From the NCBI GenBank assembly GCA_900770535.1, contig CAAHDV010000150.1, positions 1-16,605 of the forward strand: 16,605 nucleotides of DNA. Direction: 5' to 3'. Below are positions 5,982 through 16,124 of this stretch, piece by piece. The first letter of the stretch is position 1. Every line of letters begins with the position of its first letter. The translations under genes were made by a program, and so were the position numbers. Source of the DNA: Lachnospiraceae bacterium. GTDB taxonomy: Bacteria > Bacillota > Clostridia > Lachnospirales > Lachnospiraceae. Below the pieces are notes generated by a model. The model saw only the letters and a program-made list of their open reading frames with translations, was not told the origin of the DNA and searched no databases.

Positions 5982-7466
5982 TTACGCAAATGGATTTTCT
6001 GTCGGATAGCGCACGCCGGCCGGCTGGTTGTAGCCGATCTCTTTTACATCAACTCCGACATACTTAAATACCTCATACAGTGCCTTTCCGTAATGTCCGA
6101 ATGCCACTGCGCCATGATGCGGGAAGTTGCCTTCGATCAGGACATGGCGGTAAAAGCGCTTCATCTCCGGGATGGCGAATACACCGATGCTGCCGAAGGA
6201 ATGGGTTGCCACCGGCAGAACCTCACCGTTTGCCACATAGGCCCGCAGCTTGTTGTCTGCGGTGCTCTGCAGGCGGAAGAAGGTGATGTCACCCGGAACA
6301 ATATCGCCCTCCAGGGTTCCCTGGGTTACTTCTTCCGGAAGGCTTCTTGCCATGATCAGCTGGTACTTCATCTGGCAGAAGGACAGCTTCTTTGTGGTGG
6401 TGTTGCCGCAGTGGAAGCCCATGAAGACATCGTGGCTCTTATAATCGAATTTTCCTTTGATTTCGGTATCGTAAAGGTCATACGGCACAGTGTTATTGAT
6501 GTCCAGAAGGGTAACCGCATCCTGGCTGACACAGGTTCCGATGAACTCACTTAAGCAGCCGTAGATATCTACCTCACAGGATACCGGGATGCCGCGGCCG
6601 GTCAGACGGCTGTTGACGTAGCACGGCACAAAGCCAAACTGGGTCTGGAATGCAGGCCAGCATTTTCCGGCAATGGCCACGTATTTGCGGTAGCCCTTAT
6701 GTGCCTCGATCCAGTCAAGCAGAGTCAGTTCATACTGGGCCAGTTTCGGCAGGATTTCCGGCTTCTTGTTGCCTTCGCCCAGTTCTTGCTCCATGTCTGC
6801 CACAACATCCGGGATTCTCGGGTCTCCCTCATGCTTATTAAATGCTTCAAACAGATCCAGCTCGGAGTTTTCCTCAATCTCCACACCCAGATTGTAAAGC
6901 TGCTTGATTGGTGCGTTGCATGCCAGGAAGTTTAATGGTCTCGGTCCAAAGCTGATGATTTTTAAGTCAGACAGGCCGATGACGGCTCTTGCGATCGGTA
7001 AAAACTCGTGGATCATATCCGCGCACTCATCAGCAGTTCCCACTGGATACTCCGGAATATACGCCTTAATGTTGCGCAGAGCCAGGTTATAGCTTGCGTT
7101 CAGCATACCGCAGTACGCGTCACCGCGTCCCTGTACCAGATTGTCCTTGCTCTCCTCTGCGGCGGCAACAAACATTTTCGGCCCATCAAAATGTTTTGCC
7201 AGCAGGGTCTCGGAAATCTCCGGTCCGAAGTTTCCAAGATATACGACCAGCGCGTTGCAGCCGGCTGCCTTGATATCCTCCAGTGCCTGTACCATATGGA
7301 TCTCACTCTCCACGATGCAGACTGGGCACTCATAGATATCCTTTGCGTCATACTTTTTGCTGTAAGCGTCCACTAGCGCTTTTCTGCGGTTCACGGACAG
7401 AGACTCCGGGAAACAGTCACGGCTCACCGCAACAATGCCTGCTTTCACTTCTGGAATGTTGTTCAT
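5982..7466 (-). CDS. L-fucose/L-arabinose isomerase family protein (FucI-like sugar isomerase)
   Basis: A 494-residue metal-dependent aldose-ketose isomerase of the FucI/AraA superfamily, nearer in size to AraA-type and FucI-related proteins than to the roughly 590-residue E. coli FucI. The expected metal and catalytic residues are present: Glu298 in SCEVDIYG, Asp322 in LLDINN and His450/His451 in FPHHGAVAFGHYG. A sugar-binding N-terminal domain with LGNFGPE (78-84) precedes them. AGGAGG lies 8 bases before the ATG. It is the second gene of an operon, 42 bases after xylB, and is followed by the terminator at 5914-5948. The partner suggests a product that is a ketopentose such as D-xylulose, but the true substrate is not readable. 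It is not a XylA-type xylose isomerase. Confidence 0.85.
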   Translation of the reverse strand: MNNIPEVKAGIVAVSRDCFPESLSVNRRKALVDAYSKKYDAKDIYECPVCIVESEIHMVQALEDIKAAGCNALVVYLGNFGPEISETLLAKHFDGPKMFVAAAEESKDNLVQGRGDAYCGMLNASYNLALRNIKAYIPEYPVGTADECADMIHEFLPIARAVIGLSDLKIISFGPRPLNFLACNAPIKQLYNLGVEIEENSELDLFEAFNKHEGDPRIPDVVADMEQELGEGNKKPEILPKLAQYELTLLDWIEAHKGYRKYVAIAGKCWPAFQTQFGFVPCYVNSRLTGRGIPVSCEVDIYGCLSEFIGTCVSQDAVTLLDINNTVPYDLYDTEIKGKFDYKSHDVFMGFHCGNTTTKKLSFCQMKYQLIMARSLPEEVTQGTLEGDIVPGDITFFRLQSTADNKLRAYVANGEVLPVATHSFGSIGVFAIPEMKRFYRHVLIEGNFPHHGAVAFGHYGKALYEVFKYVGVDVKEIGYNQPAGVRYPTENPFA

Positions 7467-7508: not shown

Positions 7509-8978
7509 TTATTGGATCAGCTGAAATAATGACTTGCACGCCGGATAAATCTGTTTGAATGTCTGATAACGTTTTTCGTACTTTGTCGCCAGCTCCGGTT
7601 CCGGCTCCACCGTTCCGGTAACCTTCACCAGTTTCCGCGCTGCTGCTTCCACGCTCTCATATTCTCCGCAGGCAACCGCCGCCAGCATAGCACCGCCCAG
7701 CGCCGGTCCTTCCTCGCTCTCGATCATATCGACTTTTAAGTTCATGACATTGGCAATGATCTTTCTCCAAAGCGGACTCTTGGCTCCGCCACCGCAGATC
7801 TTGGTCCGCTCAATCTGAATGCCAAGGGACTTTGCCACTTCCAGGGAATCCCTCAGCGCAAAAGCCACGCCCTCCAGCACTGCCTGGGTCATATCTGCCC
7901 GGCTGGTGTCCATGGTCATGCCGATGAAGGTACCGCGGGCATTCGGGTCATTGTGCGGGGAACGCTCTCCCATCAGATACGGCAGAAAATACACATGGTT
8001 CTCCCCCAGTTTTGTGATGGCTTCCTGCTCCTTTGCATAGTCCGAAGTTTCAAGAATCCCGTCCATCCACCATTTGTTGCAGGATGCCGCGCTGAGCATG
8101 CAGCCCATCAGGTGATAATGACCGTCGGCATGGGCAAAGGCGTGTAGGGCGTTGTGACTGTCTACACCGAATTTTTCCGAAGAAATGAAAATGGTTCCGC
8201 TGGTACCCAGGGAAATGTTGCACATGCCATCTCCCACCGTACCGGTTCCGACTGCCGCCGCCGCATTGTCTCCGGCACCGGCCGCTACCCGGACAGTATG
8301 GGGAATTCCCAGTTCATCGGCAATGGCCGGAAGCACCGTTCCCACCGTCTCATAAGATTCATAGACCTTCGCCAGCTGATCCGGGCGCACACCGCAGATC
8401 TCACACATCTCCTTTGACCAGCATCGGTTCTTCACATCAAACAACAGCATGCCGGACGCATCCGACACATCGGTGCAGTGTACACCGGTCAGGCGATACG
8501 CGATGTAATCCTTCGGAAGCATGACCTTCGCAATCCGGGCAAAGTTCTCCGGTTCCTTGTTTCTGACCCATAAAATCTTCGGCGCGGTAAATCCCGTAAA
8601 GGAAATATTGGCTGTATATTCGGAAAGTTTCTCTTTGCCGATCACGTTGTTCAGGTAATCGCATTCCTCCCAGGTCCGGCCGTCATTCCAGAGAAGGGCC
8701 GGGCGGATCACGTTGTCTGCCTTGTCCAGGATGACGAGTCCATGCATCTGCCCGCCAAAGCTGATGCCTGACACCTGCTCTTTGTCACTGCCATCCAGCA
8801 GTTCCTTCAGCCCATCCATGGTCCCCGCAAACCAGTCTTCCGGCTTCTGCTCTGACCAGCCCGGATGTGGAAAATAAATAGGATACTCTTTCGAAACGAT
8901 CTTTTTGATCTGGCCTGCTCCGTCCATCAAAAGCAGCTTCACCGCCGATGTTCCAAGATCTATTCCAATATAAAGCAT
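7509..8978 (-). CDS. xylB: Xylulokinase (FGGY family)
   Basis: XylB phosphorylates D-xylulose to D-xylulose 5-phosphate, feeding the pentose phosphate pathway. The 489 residues start with the ATP-domain motif YIGIDLGTSAVK (3-14). XylB-type signatures are SFGGQMHGLVILD (73-85) and ALLWNDGRTWEE (94-105). The catalytic Asp237 lies in GAGDNAA and the second phosphate loop is SLGTSG (256-261). The FGGY family also includes ribulo- and fuculokinases, but QMHG with LLWNDGR favours xylulokinase. The ATG at 8978 has AAGGAGGG 7 bases upstream; the longer in-frame extension would cover this site. It is the first gene of the xylB-isomerase operon, with a promoter at 9039-9067. Confidence 0.92.
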   Translation of the reverse strand: MLYIGIDLGTSAVKLLLMDGAGQIKKIVSKEYPIYFPHPGWSEQKPEDWFAGTMDGLKELLDGSDKEQVSGISFGGQMHGLVILDKADNVIRPALLWNDGRTWEECDYLNNVIGKEKLSEYTANISFTGFTAPKILWVRNKEPENFARIAKVMLPKDYIAYRLTGVHCTDVSDASGMLLFDVKNRCWSKEMCEICGVRPDQLAKVYESYETVGTVLPAIADELGIPHTVRVAAGAGDNAAAAVGTGTVGDGMCNISLGTSGTIFISSEKFGVDSHNALHAFAHADGHYHLMGCMLSAASCNKWWMDGILETSDYAKEQEAITKLGENHVYFLPYLMGERSPHNDPNARGTFIGMTMDTSRADMTQAVLEGVAFALRDSLEVAKSLGIQIERTKICGGGAKSPLWRKIIANVMNLKVDMIESEEGPALGGAMLAAVACGEYESVEAAARKLVKVTGTVEPEPELATKYEKRYQTFKQIYPACKSLFQLIQ

Positions 8979-12899: not shown

Positions 12900-14669
12900 C
12901 TACTGCGCAGAAGTTTCCGGCGCGGTCGGCTTTGCTACGGCCTGTCCTTCTGCAGGTACATTGCTTTTTTCTGGCGCAGTTGTGCCTTTTTCAGCCGTGT
13001 TTTCTGCTTCAGTTGTTTTCTCTGCCACCGTGGTTTCTTTCGCTGCTGTCGTCTTCTCTGCCGCTGTTGTTTTTTCTGCTGCCGTTGTTTTTTCTGCTGC
13101 CGTGGTTTTCTCTGACGCAGTTGTTTTTTCTGACGTTCCTTTTGTGGCAGCTGCAGAGCTTTCCGGCGCTACCTTCTCTTTCTGGCCAGGAACGTAATCA
13201 TCCGGCATGCCGTCCACCGTTGCTGCCACCGTAGTCTTTGCTGCTGCGGAGGTCTCCTTCACCTGAGTCTTTCCGCTGTTGCGGCGGATGATGGCTGCAT
13301 GCCCCTTGTACTCCTTGGAGTGGTCCTCGGTCCGCTCTACTACTTCGCCATTCTTCTTCACCACCTTATAAGTGATCCAGCGGCTTCCCTTGGTTCCGGC
13401 TTTCTTTACCACCTCGGTTCCCGGCGCAAGCGTCGGGTCTTCCTCGTAGGTTGGTTCCGGCGTATCCAGTTCCTCCACCTTTTCTGATTCCAGACTCCAG
13501 GTCACTCCATCTTCCAGAATCGGAACTCCGTAAATGGCCACCGTAGTCTTCCGGTTGCTGTAGCTGGCCCGGATGCCAATAGCTACCTCCGAAGTATTCA
13601 CAAACCGGAAATCCGGGTAATCCCAGCTGATGGCCGCATCCTGGCCCGGAGTGACATAGTTTGGCTCAAAGGTATGAGACCGGCGGTAGGTAATGTTCAT
13701 ACCGGAGCGGAACGCCACCTGATATAAAGTAGAAGACACCTGGCAGACACCGCCGCCCAGTTCCTGCACCACCTCTCCGCTGTTGTAGGCCGCCGCCTCC
13801 TGGTATCCCTTCTCTGCCGTTCTCGGCCCGACGATCTTATTAAACGAGAATTCCTCGCCCGGCTTTACAACCGTTCCGTTGATGGCTTCTGCCGCCAGCC
13901 GCACGTTGGTGTTGCGCTTTTCGTTGGCTGTCGTTTCCGTGGTGAAAGAAGCCAGCTTCTCATAGCGCGCCCGCGCCTCTGCCTCGGAATACTTCGGCTG
14001 GGTCGTGCTCACCTCTGCCGCAATCACAGCGTCATAACTGCCATTTACCGCTGCGTCTGCCAGATCTGACGCCAGTTTTTCCTGGTTTACCGCAATTCCC
14101 GGCGTTCCCTCAGAAAAGAGGAATTTATCACTCGCCGCATCGTAATCATAAATGGTACTGCTCTTCGCCTTTACATCCCAGACCGCCGCAATTTTCTCCG
14201 CAGCTGCCTTTGCGCTCTCCCGCAGTGTTTCCGTATCCGTTACCGAAAATGTATAATCTCCAGCTGCTTTCACCGTACAGATGCCATCTAAAAATGTTTC
14301 CAGCTCCGCATCCAGAATGTTGTCTGCTTCCAGTGTTTCCCCGTTGTAAGTCACAGTAACCTTCCACGGATACTCCTTCGCAATGGCCTCCTTCGCCTCC
14401 GCCCGGGTCATACCGGTCAGGGAGATGCCATTCACCCGGATGTCATCCGACGCAAAGGTTGTCTCGATCACCATACTGCTCTCCGGCTCCACATTGCTGC
14501 TCTTTTTCCCTGACAGCATGTGCGCCGCAGCAAACACCACTGCAACCAGGGCCACCGCAGCGCCGCCCACCATCATGCGCTCCCGCTGCACCCGTTTTTT
14601 CCGCATTTTCTCCACCCGCTGCATAGCAGGGGATTTTCCTCTGTAAGATTCCTTCTGTCTGTCACGCAT
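12900..14669 (-). CDS. VanW family protein with G5 domain and repeat tail, membrane-anchored
   Basis: A 589-residue envelope protein. Positions 1-31 are a basic cytoplasmic tail, 32-51 a single membrane helix, and the rest is outside. About 75-220 resembles the N-terminal domain of YoaR-type VanW proteins (peptidoglycan-binding-like). The VanW domain spans about 250-375, with GTVVKPGEEFSFNKIVGPRT, GGGVCQVSSTLYQVAF (305-320) and RRSHTFEPNYV. A G5-like domain follows at about 390-465 (GTKGSRWITYKVVKKNGEV), a module that binds cell-wall sugars in other proteins. The tail (about 470-589) is low complexity, with EKTTAA repeats. Despite the name, VanW has no proven resistance role and no other van genes are nearby. 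AAGGA lies 7 bases before the ATG. A cell-wall role is inferred from domains. Confidence 0.88.
   Translation of the reverse strand: MRDRQKESYRGKSPAMQRVEKMRKKRVQRERMMVGGAAVALVAVVFAAAHMLSGKKSSNVEPESSMVIETTFASDDIRVNGISLTGMTRAEAKEAIAKEYPWKVTVTYNGETLEADNILDAELETFLDGICTVKAAGDYTFSVTDTETLRESAKAAAEKIAAVWDVKAKSSTIYDYDAASDKFLFSEGTPGIAVNQEKLASDLADAAVNGSYDAVIAAEVSTTQPKYSEAEARARYEKLASFTTETTANEKRNTNVRLAAEAINGTVVKPGEEFSFNKIVGPRTAEKGYQEAAAYNSGEVVQELGGGVCQVSSTLYQVAFRSGMNITYRRSHTFEPNYVTPGQDAAISWDYPDFRFVNTSEVAIGIRASYSNRKTTVAIYGVPILEDGVTWSLESEKVEELDTPEPTYEEDPTLAPGTEVVKKAGTKGSRWITYKVVKKNGEVVERTEDHSKEYKGHAAIIRRNSGKTQVKETSAAAKTTVAATVDGMPDDYVPGQKEKVAPESSAAATKGTSEKTTASEKTTAAEKTTAAEKTTAAEKTTAAKETTVAEKTTEAENTAEKGTTAPEKSNVPAEGQAVAKPTAPETSAQ
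13002..13130 (-). repeat. Tandem 18-bp repeats encoding EKTTAA in the VanW protein tail
   Basis: Residues 514-556 consist of about seven units of a Glu-Lys-Thr-Thr-Ala-Ala hexapeptide, with drift at both ends (EKTTAS, KETTVA, EKTTEA). At DNA level the unit is 18 bp. The central copies are nearly identical, so copy number may vary by slippage without breaking the frame. Confidence 0.8.
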
Positions 14670-14773: not shown

Positions 14774-15970
14774 TCATTCCTTCTCCAGCAGCTTCTCAAA
14801 CGTACTGTCCATCCCCAGCGCTCCCAGCGGCGCCGTGATCAGAATAGCCATGACCGCCACGGAAAGCACAATCTGACCACAGGGAAGTCCCATAGCCATT
14901 GGCACGGACCCAATTGCGGCCTGAACCGTTGCCTTTGGCAGATAAGCGATGACGCAGAACAGGCGCTCTTTCCAGTTCAGCTCGGTTCCCACAAGGCAGA
15001 GCAGCACACCCACAGTACGGAATAACAGTGCCGTAAAGATCATGAAAACTGCCGCCAGCCCCGCTCCCATGGTGTAGCGGATATCTACTGCCGCCCCCAC
15101 CAGCACGAACAGCAGCAACTCTGCCGCCAGCCACAGCTTGCCAAATTTCTCGGACAGGCGCGCCGATACTGCTTTGATGCTCCGCAGCTTCAGCACACAG
15201 GCCATACCGACCACAGCCAGAAGCCCGGACACGGAAAGATACGGCTTCACCCAGGTTTCCACGGACATCAGCAGGAACGATACTCCCAGCACAATAATGA
15301 CCTTCATGCTATTGCGGACGTAATGTTTTTTCGCATAGGCCGTCTCAAAGAACAGGCTTAACAGCCATCCGGCTGCCGCACCCAGCAAAATGCCGCTCAC
15401 AATGGACACCGGAATGTTGGCGAAATCCATCAGCCGCGCGCTTCCGCCCTGGGCCATGCCCGAAAAGGTAGAAAACAGGACAATGACAAAAATATCGTCG
15501 CAAGATGCCCCGGCCAGAATCATCTGCGGAATGCTCTTCTTTGTTCCGTAGCCCGTTTCCATCAGCTTCACCATACGGGGAACTACCACCGCCGGGGAAA
15601 CTGCCGCTAACACCGCCCCCATTACAGCCGCCTCGATGCGGTTGACGCCAAGAATCATGGGCGCAAACAGCACATAGCCCAACAGTTCAAAGCTCGCCGG
15701 TACGCAGGACAACATGACGGCAGGCCGTCCCACCTTCTTTAAATCTGCCAGATTCAGCGACAGTCCCGCCTTCACCAGAATGATGATCAGCGCCATCTGC
15801 CGCAGCTCTGACGAAATCGAAAGAATGGACGGATCCAGAAGGTCCAGCACATAGGGACCAAGTACAATACCGGTCAGGAGCATACCGATGATGCGCGGCA
15901 GGCGGATGCGCTGGCAGATGGCCGCCATGGCCAGGCCCACCAGAAAAATAAATGAAAGTGACGTTAACAT
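14774..15970 (-). CDS. Cation:proton antiporter (CPA/Kef-NhaP type), under fluoride riboswitch control
   Basis: An integral membrane protein of 398 residues with about 12 hydrophobic segments and no soluble C-terminal domain, the size of the core CPA antiporter fold. Family landmarks are LPRIIGMLLTGIVLGPYVLD (25-44), ILVKAGLSLNL (64-74), VSPAVVVPRMVKL (124-136) and the paired acidic residues of the ion path, Asp158-Asp159 in GASCDDIF. A DD pair is usual in electrogenic members, but I do not infer the cation. The start is the ATG at 15970, because AAGGAGG lies 7 bases before it; the longer in-frame version would include that site. The leader carries a fluoride riboswitch, which implies a role in fluoride tolerance, by expelling fluoride or by correcting the proton load it causes. 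Confidence 0.9.
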   Translation of the reverse strand: MLTSLSFIFLVGLAMAAICQRIRLPRIIGMLLTGIVLGPYVLDLLDPSILSISSELRQMALIIILVKAGLSLNLADLKKVGRPAVMLSCVPASFELLGYVLFAPMILGVNRIEAAVMGAVLAAVSPAVVVPRMVKLMETGYGTKKSIPQMILAGASCDDIFVIVLFSTFSGMAQGGSARLMDFANIPVSIVSGILLGAAAGWLLSLFFETAYAKKHYVRNSMKVIIVLGVSFLLMSVETWVKPYLSVSGLLAVVGMACVLKLRSIKAVSARLSEKFGKLWLAAELLLFVLVGAAVDIRYTMGAGLAAVFMIFTALLFRTVGVLLCLVGTELNWKERLFCVIAYLPKATVQAAIGSVPMAMGLPCGQIVLSVAVMAILITAPLGALGMDSTFEKLLEKE

Positions 15971-15995
15971 AAATTTTCCTCCTTTTTTCACAGGG

Positions 15996-16090
15996 AAAAA
16001 GAAAAAGCCAATGACCCTGTGATTTTCTCACAGAAGTCATCAGCTTTGTATAAGCGGTTCTGGTTTCCCAAGGGAGAACTTCATTCCCTG
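15996..16090 (-). promoter_or_regulatory. Fluoride riboswitch (crcB motif) with transcription terminator
   Basis: Read on the minus strand, the aptamer begins GGGAAUGAAG (from 16088) and closes with UCUCCC. A small GAAA-loop hairpin and AACCGCUU follow, then loop AUACA, then AAGCUGAUGACUUCUG. These match the conserved crcB blocks (AUG near the 5' end, AACCGC, GCUGAUGAC). The long-range helix GAAGU (16082-16078) with ACUUC (16037-16033) and the GCUU/AAGC stem both form. The 3' strand of the aptamer is also the 5' strand of a terminator stem (16028-16040 with 16011-16022) followed by CTTTTTCTTTTT. Fluoride binding should therefore block termination and switch the antiporter on. Confidence 0.87.
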
Positions 16091-16095
16091 ACGGT

Positions 16096-16124
16096 ATTCT
16101 ACTTGATTTTACCCGATTTGTAAA
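16096..16124 (-). promoter_or_regulatory. Sigma-A promoter of the riboswitch-antiporter unit
   Basis: TTTACA (16119-16124), 17-base spacer, TAGAAT (16096-16101). The predicted start at about 16089 coincides with the first bases of the riboswitch aptamer, which supports both calls. Confidence 0.7.

Follow-up and report, generated by a model that had tools for sequence, protein, structure and literature searches.

The window analysed here is the whole 16,605-nucleotide stretch of a Lachnospiraceae contig. Its minus strand carries a fluoride riboswitch followed by a gene for an NHA2-like cation:proton antiporter, and the features of this locus are listed in Table 1. A VanW-like protein with a G5 domain is encoded on the same strand at 12900-14669, approximately 105 bases downstream of the antiporter. 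The window also encodes an L-fucose isomerase C-terminal domain protein (5982-7466), which has a weak match under the cut-off to sulfoquinovose isomerase and is adjoined by a xylulokinase gene.

Table 1. Features of the riboswitch-antiporter locus, with coordinates in the window.
Feature	Coordinates	Strand	Basis
-35 hexamer TTTACA	16119..16124	-	position conserved in relatives
-10 hexamer TAGAAT, predicted start ~16089	16096..16101	-	spacing conserved in relatives
Fluoride riboswitch aptamer (RF01734)	16024..16097	-	49.8 bits, model 1-64
P1 hairpin GGGA-AUGAAGUUC-UCCC	16072..16088 (16088-16085/16075-16072)	-	Rfam and sequence reading
Inserted UGG-GAAA-CCA hairpin, GAAA loop, typical of the clade	16060..16071	-	sequence and relatives
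P3 hairpin GCUU/AAGC	16043..16055	-	Rfam match and folding
ACUUC, 3' pseudoknot strand, common to the terminator 5' arm	16033..16037	-	Rfam match and folding
Predicted intrinsic terminator, stem 16047-16004 then U5-C-U5 (16006-15996)	15996..16047	-	folding, arm swaps
Alternative hairpin UCACAGGG (16022-16015)/CCCUGUGA (15995-15988)	15988..16022	-	sequence, swap test
Shine-Dalgarno AAGGAGG	15978..15984	-	sequence
NHA2-like (CPA2-type) cation:proton antiporter, 398 aa, ATG 15970	14774..15970	-	profile, fold, alignment

An Rfam scan of the whole window matched the fluoride riboswitch model RF01734 at 16097-16024 (minus strand) with 49.8 bits, an E value of 2.2e-11, and 64 of 64 model positions covered. 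The gathering cut-off of this model is 34 bits, and no other Rfam family reached its gathering score in the window. The conserved crcB aptamer blocks and helices described in the first-pass annotation were thereby recovered. Read along the minus strand, the promoter is followed by P1, the inserted hairpin, the conserved AACCGC, P3, and GCUGAUGACUUC, the last of which is also part of the 5' arm of the hairpin at 16047-16004. The 5' pseudoknot strand is GAAGU in the P1 loop (16082-16078). Across the 71 leaders described below, 354 of 355 pair cells of the GAAGU/ACUUC pseudoknot are standard, with little variation. When the aptamer is folded by itself as a nested structure, its stability does not exceed that of shuffles (z 0.04), the pseudoknot being outside the fold model. 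A chance match to RF01734 was ruled out by the score and by conservation in relatives. The region 16097-16024 is confirmed, on the basis of its sequence, as a fluoride (crcB) riboswitch and an ordinary member of the known class.

Two details of the aptamer had been called unusual, namely AAUG instead of GAUG and the inserted hairpin. Both are ordinary in this clade, since AAUGAAG is present in 64 of the 71 leaders and an inserted hairpin of at least two pairs, in many differing sequences, in 60 of the 71 (a permissive search without a chance control). The window aptamer is like the RF01734 family in the 64 model positions, P1, P3, the pseudoknot, the overlapping terminator, and the ON logic. 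It differs by the clade-typical AAUG loop and the inserted variable hairpin, and nothing in it falls outside the family.

The stem at 16047-16004 has a predicted energy of −24.0 kcal/mol (z −5.98), and none of 200 shuffles was equally stable. Together with the U5-C-U5 that follows, it bears out the earlier description of ACUUC as common to the aptamer and to a terminator stem with two T-runs after it. Overlap of this kind is widespread among RF01734 riboswitches, though some members lack it. A simple terminator scan did not list this stem, in our reading because an internal UU/G bulge breaks the scan pattern. The sole site listed was 16255-16237, which lies between the upstream open frame and the riboswitch promoter (one site found, 0.6 expected). 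When 3' arms were exchanged among the 71 leaders, the mean stem energy rose from −23.7 to −21.1 kcal/mol, the best of 200 swaps reaching −22.1, in a comparison that is biased towards the unswapped set by the choice of each leader's U-run by its own best pairing. The terminator arms co-vary over the 71 leaders. In five loci (L004, L007, L016, L019, and L046), the stretch from aptamer to antiporter was seen by eye to hold two tandem terminator-like hairpins, of which the first shares GACUUC (GACGACUUC in L016) and the second is independent.

The promoter TTTACA-17-TAGAAT (16124-16096) is, taken alone, at chance level, with two sites found and 2.0 expected. A -10 element with at least five of six matches is present within the 22 bases before P1 in 52 of the 71 leaders, and 45 of those 52 also have a -35 element with at least four of six matches. 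Among the 68 leaders having any -10 candidate, 50 have its end 7-9 nucleotides before the first G of P1. That transcription starts on the first aptamer base (~16089), as had been proposed, is therefore well supported by the conserved placement of the -10 element in the leaders, and not by the window sequence alone.

This arrangement very probably acts as an ON switch by which fluoride controls transcription of a single gene, the antiporter. RNA polymerase would start at the first aptamer base, and the aptamer would fold. With fluoride and Mg2+ bound, the GAAGU/ACUUC pseudoknot would hold, ACUUC would be barred from the terminator stem, and transcription would enter the antiporter gene. If fluoride is missing, displacement of the pseudoknot by the 3' arm would let the 16047-16004 hairpin form, and transcription would stop at the U-runs. 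The simple ON logic and the cation:proton antiporter target, both put forward in the first-pass annotation, hold as far as sequence goes, through the aptamer and the overlapping terminator; the ligand step is carried over from the riboswitch family. Within the text available from each source, an exchange between pseudoknot and terminator is described in PMC11077080, and overlapping terminators and ion-transport genes are noted by Weinberg 2010 (PMC2864571). The available parts of PMC5533749, PMC9495176, and PMC13104614 served as background only.

A further pairing was identified just past the U-run, where the terminator 3' arm sequence UCACAGGG finds a perfect complement in CCCUGUGA. In a swap test of this post-U hairpin, 1 of 500 swaps was as good, a figure from which the relatedness of the leaders was not removed. 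Several relatives have a similar post-U pairing made of other sequences (for example, GGUCACA/UGUGGCC and GACGCA/UGCGUC). In the window, the predicted openness of the Shine-Dalgarno site changes from 0.11 to 0.67 when the 5' arm is held, and the post-U hairpin then forms. A second, translational layer was considered and rejected as a family-wide feature. In the 21 of the 71 leaders that are short enough and have a recognisable Shine-Dalgarno site, mean openness was 0.25 versus 0.31, and it moved by more than 0.1 upwards in six leaders and downwards in three.

The antiporter has the same length, 398 residues, as most of its close database relatives among the matches listed. A profile search assigned it to PF00999 (CPA/NHA antiporters) with 145.5 bits against a cut-off of 26.2 and an E value of 2.6e-42. 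The NCBIfam cut-offs were not reached by NF003716 (65.6 of 355 bits), NF003715 (47.8 of 309 bits), or TIGR00932 (48.7 of 238.3 bits). The predicted structure has the CPA fold. The best PDB sequence match is NHA2/SLC9B2 (7b4l, 7p1i) with 130 bits, and in the fold comparison the antiporter shares 32-33% identity with NHA2 structures over 381-390 residues. All 50 fold matches listed are cation/H+ antiporters; no fluoride exporter is among those 50, which rules nothing out. In the alignment rows, numbered in the 405-residue GTG frame, the site residues are D165 (43 of 44), D166 (42 of 44), E102 (44 of 44), R325 (44 of 44), and K353 (43 of 44). The DD pair, Arg, Glu, and Lys align to NHA2 and form a plain NHA2-type ion site; we take the DD pair with its supporting Arg, Glu, and Lys to be the NHA2 site residues. 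The predicted fold and site mark the protein as an NHA2-like Na+(K+,Li+)/H+ antiporter, which presumably transports these ions. It has the same site residues as NHA2/SLC9B2 and is unlike it in being bacterial, approximately 400 residues long, and located behind a fluoride riboswitch.

A search also returned plasmid relatives (787 records, with 68% identity over 24% of the query among the 20 listed). The one record examined, a Klebsiella plasmid (L111), carries at 7839-8387 a short putative Na+/H+ antiporter gene (by annotation), 68% alike over 347 bases of DNA. This gene adjoins rmtB and other resistance genes, and the plasmid relatives were set aside.

The pairing of riboswitch and antiporter was followed in 80 orthologous loci from named genomes, with 71-80% identity, these being the best 80 of 263 relatives. 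RF01734 was found over the cut-off in 45 of 50 and 26 of 30 orthologue genomes, and the riboswitch is usually the sole one in each of the 80. In 71 of the 80 loci, the antiporter is preceded by the aptamer, which was recognised in 70 by pattern and in one (L016) by eye. Between GCUGAUGAC and the matched start lie a median of 67 bases (range 49-746; 71 leaders, with the window included). No riboswitch over the cut-off was found in eight of the 80 loci despite a sufficiently long contig. A degenerate RF01734 match under the cut-off is present in L013, and no aptamer lies upstream of the antiporter in L036, L049, L050, L052, L057, L065, and L078. The contig of L014 ends 15 bases upstream of the antiporter. 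Terminator remnants are visible upstream of the antiporter in L052 and L065, and the leader remnants of L052, L065, and L013 retain the terminator half, while the aptamer half is lost or decayed.

The same pairing was sought in a class sample of 196 genomes drawn evenly from the class of G040, the Enterocloster genome that holds locus L040. Searches across more than 40 genomes ran with stricter filters that lose weak matches, and under these the riboswitch was over the cut-off in 35 of the 196 genomes and the antiporter was present in 27 at E ≤ 1e-40. By coordinates, the riboswitch is directly upstream in 23 of these 27, down to 44% identity, including one (G092) in which it is under the cut-off. 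It is not directly upstream in the remaining four (G099, G174, G212, and G267). Read from the other side, 22 of the 35 genomes with a riboswitch over the cut-off have a linked antiporter. The pairing looks old, since linked members sit in both deep branches of the tree. Genome G195 (L145, L162, and L164) has three antiporter copies; two are complete and have a riboswitch apiece, and the other is partial.

In 41 of the 80 loci, the next open frame downstream of the antiporter is on the opposite strand. In a further 25 the gap to the next frame exceeds 60 bases, in 12 it is at most 60 bases, and in two loci no downstream frame lies within the sequence. Each of the 12 neighbour families with the widest distribution lies adjacent (under 600 bases) in five cases at most. 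No gene neighbour is fixed, and the antiporter is a single-gene module. Fluc/CrcB and CLC-F are common products of fluoride riboswitch operons, and the window antiporter is likewise riboswitch-linked. They belong to other families, and CrcB does not co-occur with the antiporter in two genome samples.

The first of these is the class sample, in which CrcB was counted by PF02537 over its cut-off. There, 27 genomes have the antiporter, 39 have CrcB, and none has both (5.4 expected). CrcB is thus present in 0 of 27 genomes with the antiporter and 39 of 169 without it (p 0.003, uncorrected for shared ancestry). The second is a family sample of 299 genomes from the family of G040, in which 73 have the antiporter, 55 have CrcB, and none has both (13.4 expected), or 0 of 73 against 55 of 226 (Fisher p 4e-8, likewise uncorrected for shared ancestry). 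Three of those 73 (G335, G439, and G471) have only pieces of the antiporter gene, and the riboswitch was searched in the class sample, not the family sample. Among the orthologue genomes, CrcB is over the cut-off in 1 of 50 and 0 of 30. One further genome (G078) has a CrcB fragment under the cut-off. Metagenome bins, which may be incomplete, account for many of the genomes. The exclusion of the antiporter and Fluc/CrcB appears new, in that no earlier report was found in the literature searched, a scope outside which most subscription journals fall; riboswitch-antiporter targets are already in print.

One explanation of this exclusion is lineage sorting, in which clades inherited one gene or the other without functional replacement. 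The exclusion counts ignore phylogeny, and lineage effects exist in the class sample, because CLC proteins above 265 bits associate positively with CrcB (16 together, 6.0 expected, p 7e-6). Against sorting, a tree of 77 antiporters has 18 changes of bacterial family where the least possible is seven, the carriers, by record title, come from at least eight families in four classes, and the exclusion persists inside one family. We consider sorting rather unlikely. The mixing of families in the tree would fit with transfer and is no proof of it.

A second explanation makes the antiporter an accessory for pH homeostasis that handles protons brought in by HF, with most of the defence left to an exporter elsewhere. 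The available text of PMC11139923 interprets riboswitch-linked Na+/H+ antiporters in this way and ranks them as the commonest class after exporters. An accessory role has a precedent in C. difficile, since in the accessible part of PMC11477304 a CLC-type gene and the NhaP-type antiporter of CD0656-7 share one apparent operon and are riboswitch-linked. That locus, likened here without a protein comparison, also has a fluoride riboswitch upstream of a cation:proton antiporter; its antiporter follows the CLC-type gene, whereas the window antiporter stands alone. Some CLC is present in 53 of the 80 orthologue genomes (35 of 50 and 18 of 30), mostly of the GREGA type. However, CrcB over the cut-off is missing from 79 of 80, 27 of 27, and 73 of 73 antiporter genomes, and 26 of the 80 orthologue genomes (G078 among them) have neither CrcB over the cut-off nor any CLC.

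The CLC proteins themselves also bear on an accessory role. Of 52 CLC loci fetched, 48 proteins were inspected; four loci (L130, L132, L133, and L134) gave no protein, and CLC places in G028, G021, G039, G011, and G002 are outside the inspected set. Forty of the 48 are of the GREGA type, four are of the Cl-type (GSGIP/GREGP), and four have GREGV, GKEGV, or GKEGT. None of the 48 has all three CLC-F motifs as given in the available text of PMC11139923, with the first motif unread in three; the closest is L093 with GMGLV, GREGV, and GEVAP. By comparison, three riboswitch-linked CLCs (L165, L166, and L167) have GREGT and GEVTP, with GNNLI in L166 and L167, the sequence view of L165 ending before that site. 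The inspected proteins were therefore rejected as hidden CLC-F by their lack of the full motif set, which does not prove the GREGA types to be non-fluoride. The GREGA CLC subfamily (L081-L131), where read, has mostly GT[ND] replacing the chloride and fluoride motifs and is common in the gut genomes examined here. As a control in the class sample, CLCs of 180-240 bits, taken as GREGA-like by score rather than protein by protein, co-occur freely with CrcB (nine together, 7.8 expected) and with the antiporter (five together, 5.4 expected). An accessory role is possible and in our judgement clearly short of an even chance.

The CrcB exclusion and the lack of a fixed neighbour make the antiporter look like a fluoride defence that works on its own. 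The first-pass annotation had suggested that this antiporter may be the main fluoride-responsive transporter of the locus. That suggestion gains indirect support from the near absence of CrcB in the three genome sets and from the riboswitch, which for the most part has no second copy in the 80 orthologue genomes, but it is not proven. That it is the main, self-sufficient defence, replacing Fluc/CLC-F, has in our estimate a roughly even chance, drawn from the CrcB exclusion. Its physiological role is much less sure than the switch and its target.

The pH difference sets how much of the HF entering the cell is trapped inside as F-. H+ in/Na+ out antiport would therefore lower inside fluoride without an exporter, and an antiporter pumping H+ out would raise the trapping, so either direction of action is conceivable. 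Most likely, the antiporter would exchange Na+ and H+ and lower the pH difference that traps F- inside. Less likely, it would carry fluoride itself, with H+ or Na+, and its clade would be a third bacterial exporter family. The CrcB exclusion resembles that of Fluc and CLC-F, of which approximately 3% of strains have both in the available part of PMC11139923, and a dedicated riboswitch and a single-gene module also speak for export. The retained NHA2-type site and the 50 cation/H+ antiporters among the fold matches speak against it. Direct fluoride transport is possible and the ion site lends it no support; we regard an exporter clade as quite improbable.

For the clade as a whole, the proposal is more tentative, and we place it somewhat below even. 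The riboswitch-linked NHA2-like clade may be a third self-sufficient answer to fluoride, replacing Fluc/CLC-F in many gut Clostridia, either via collapse of the pH difference that traps F- or via carrying fluoride. That the antiporter and the Fluc channel are found apart in two genome samples poses the sharp question of whether this antiporter replaces an exporter. The gut bacteria studied here would be an exception, or would bear an unrecognised device.
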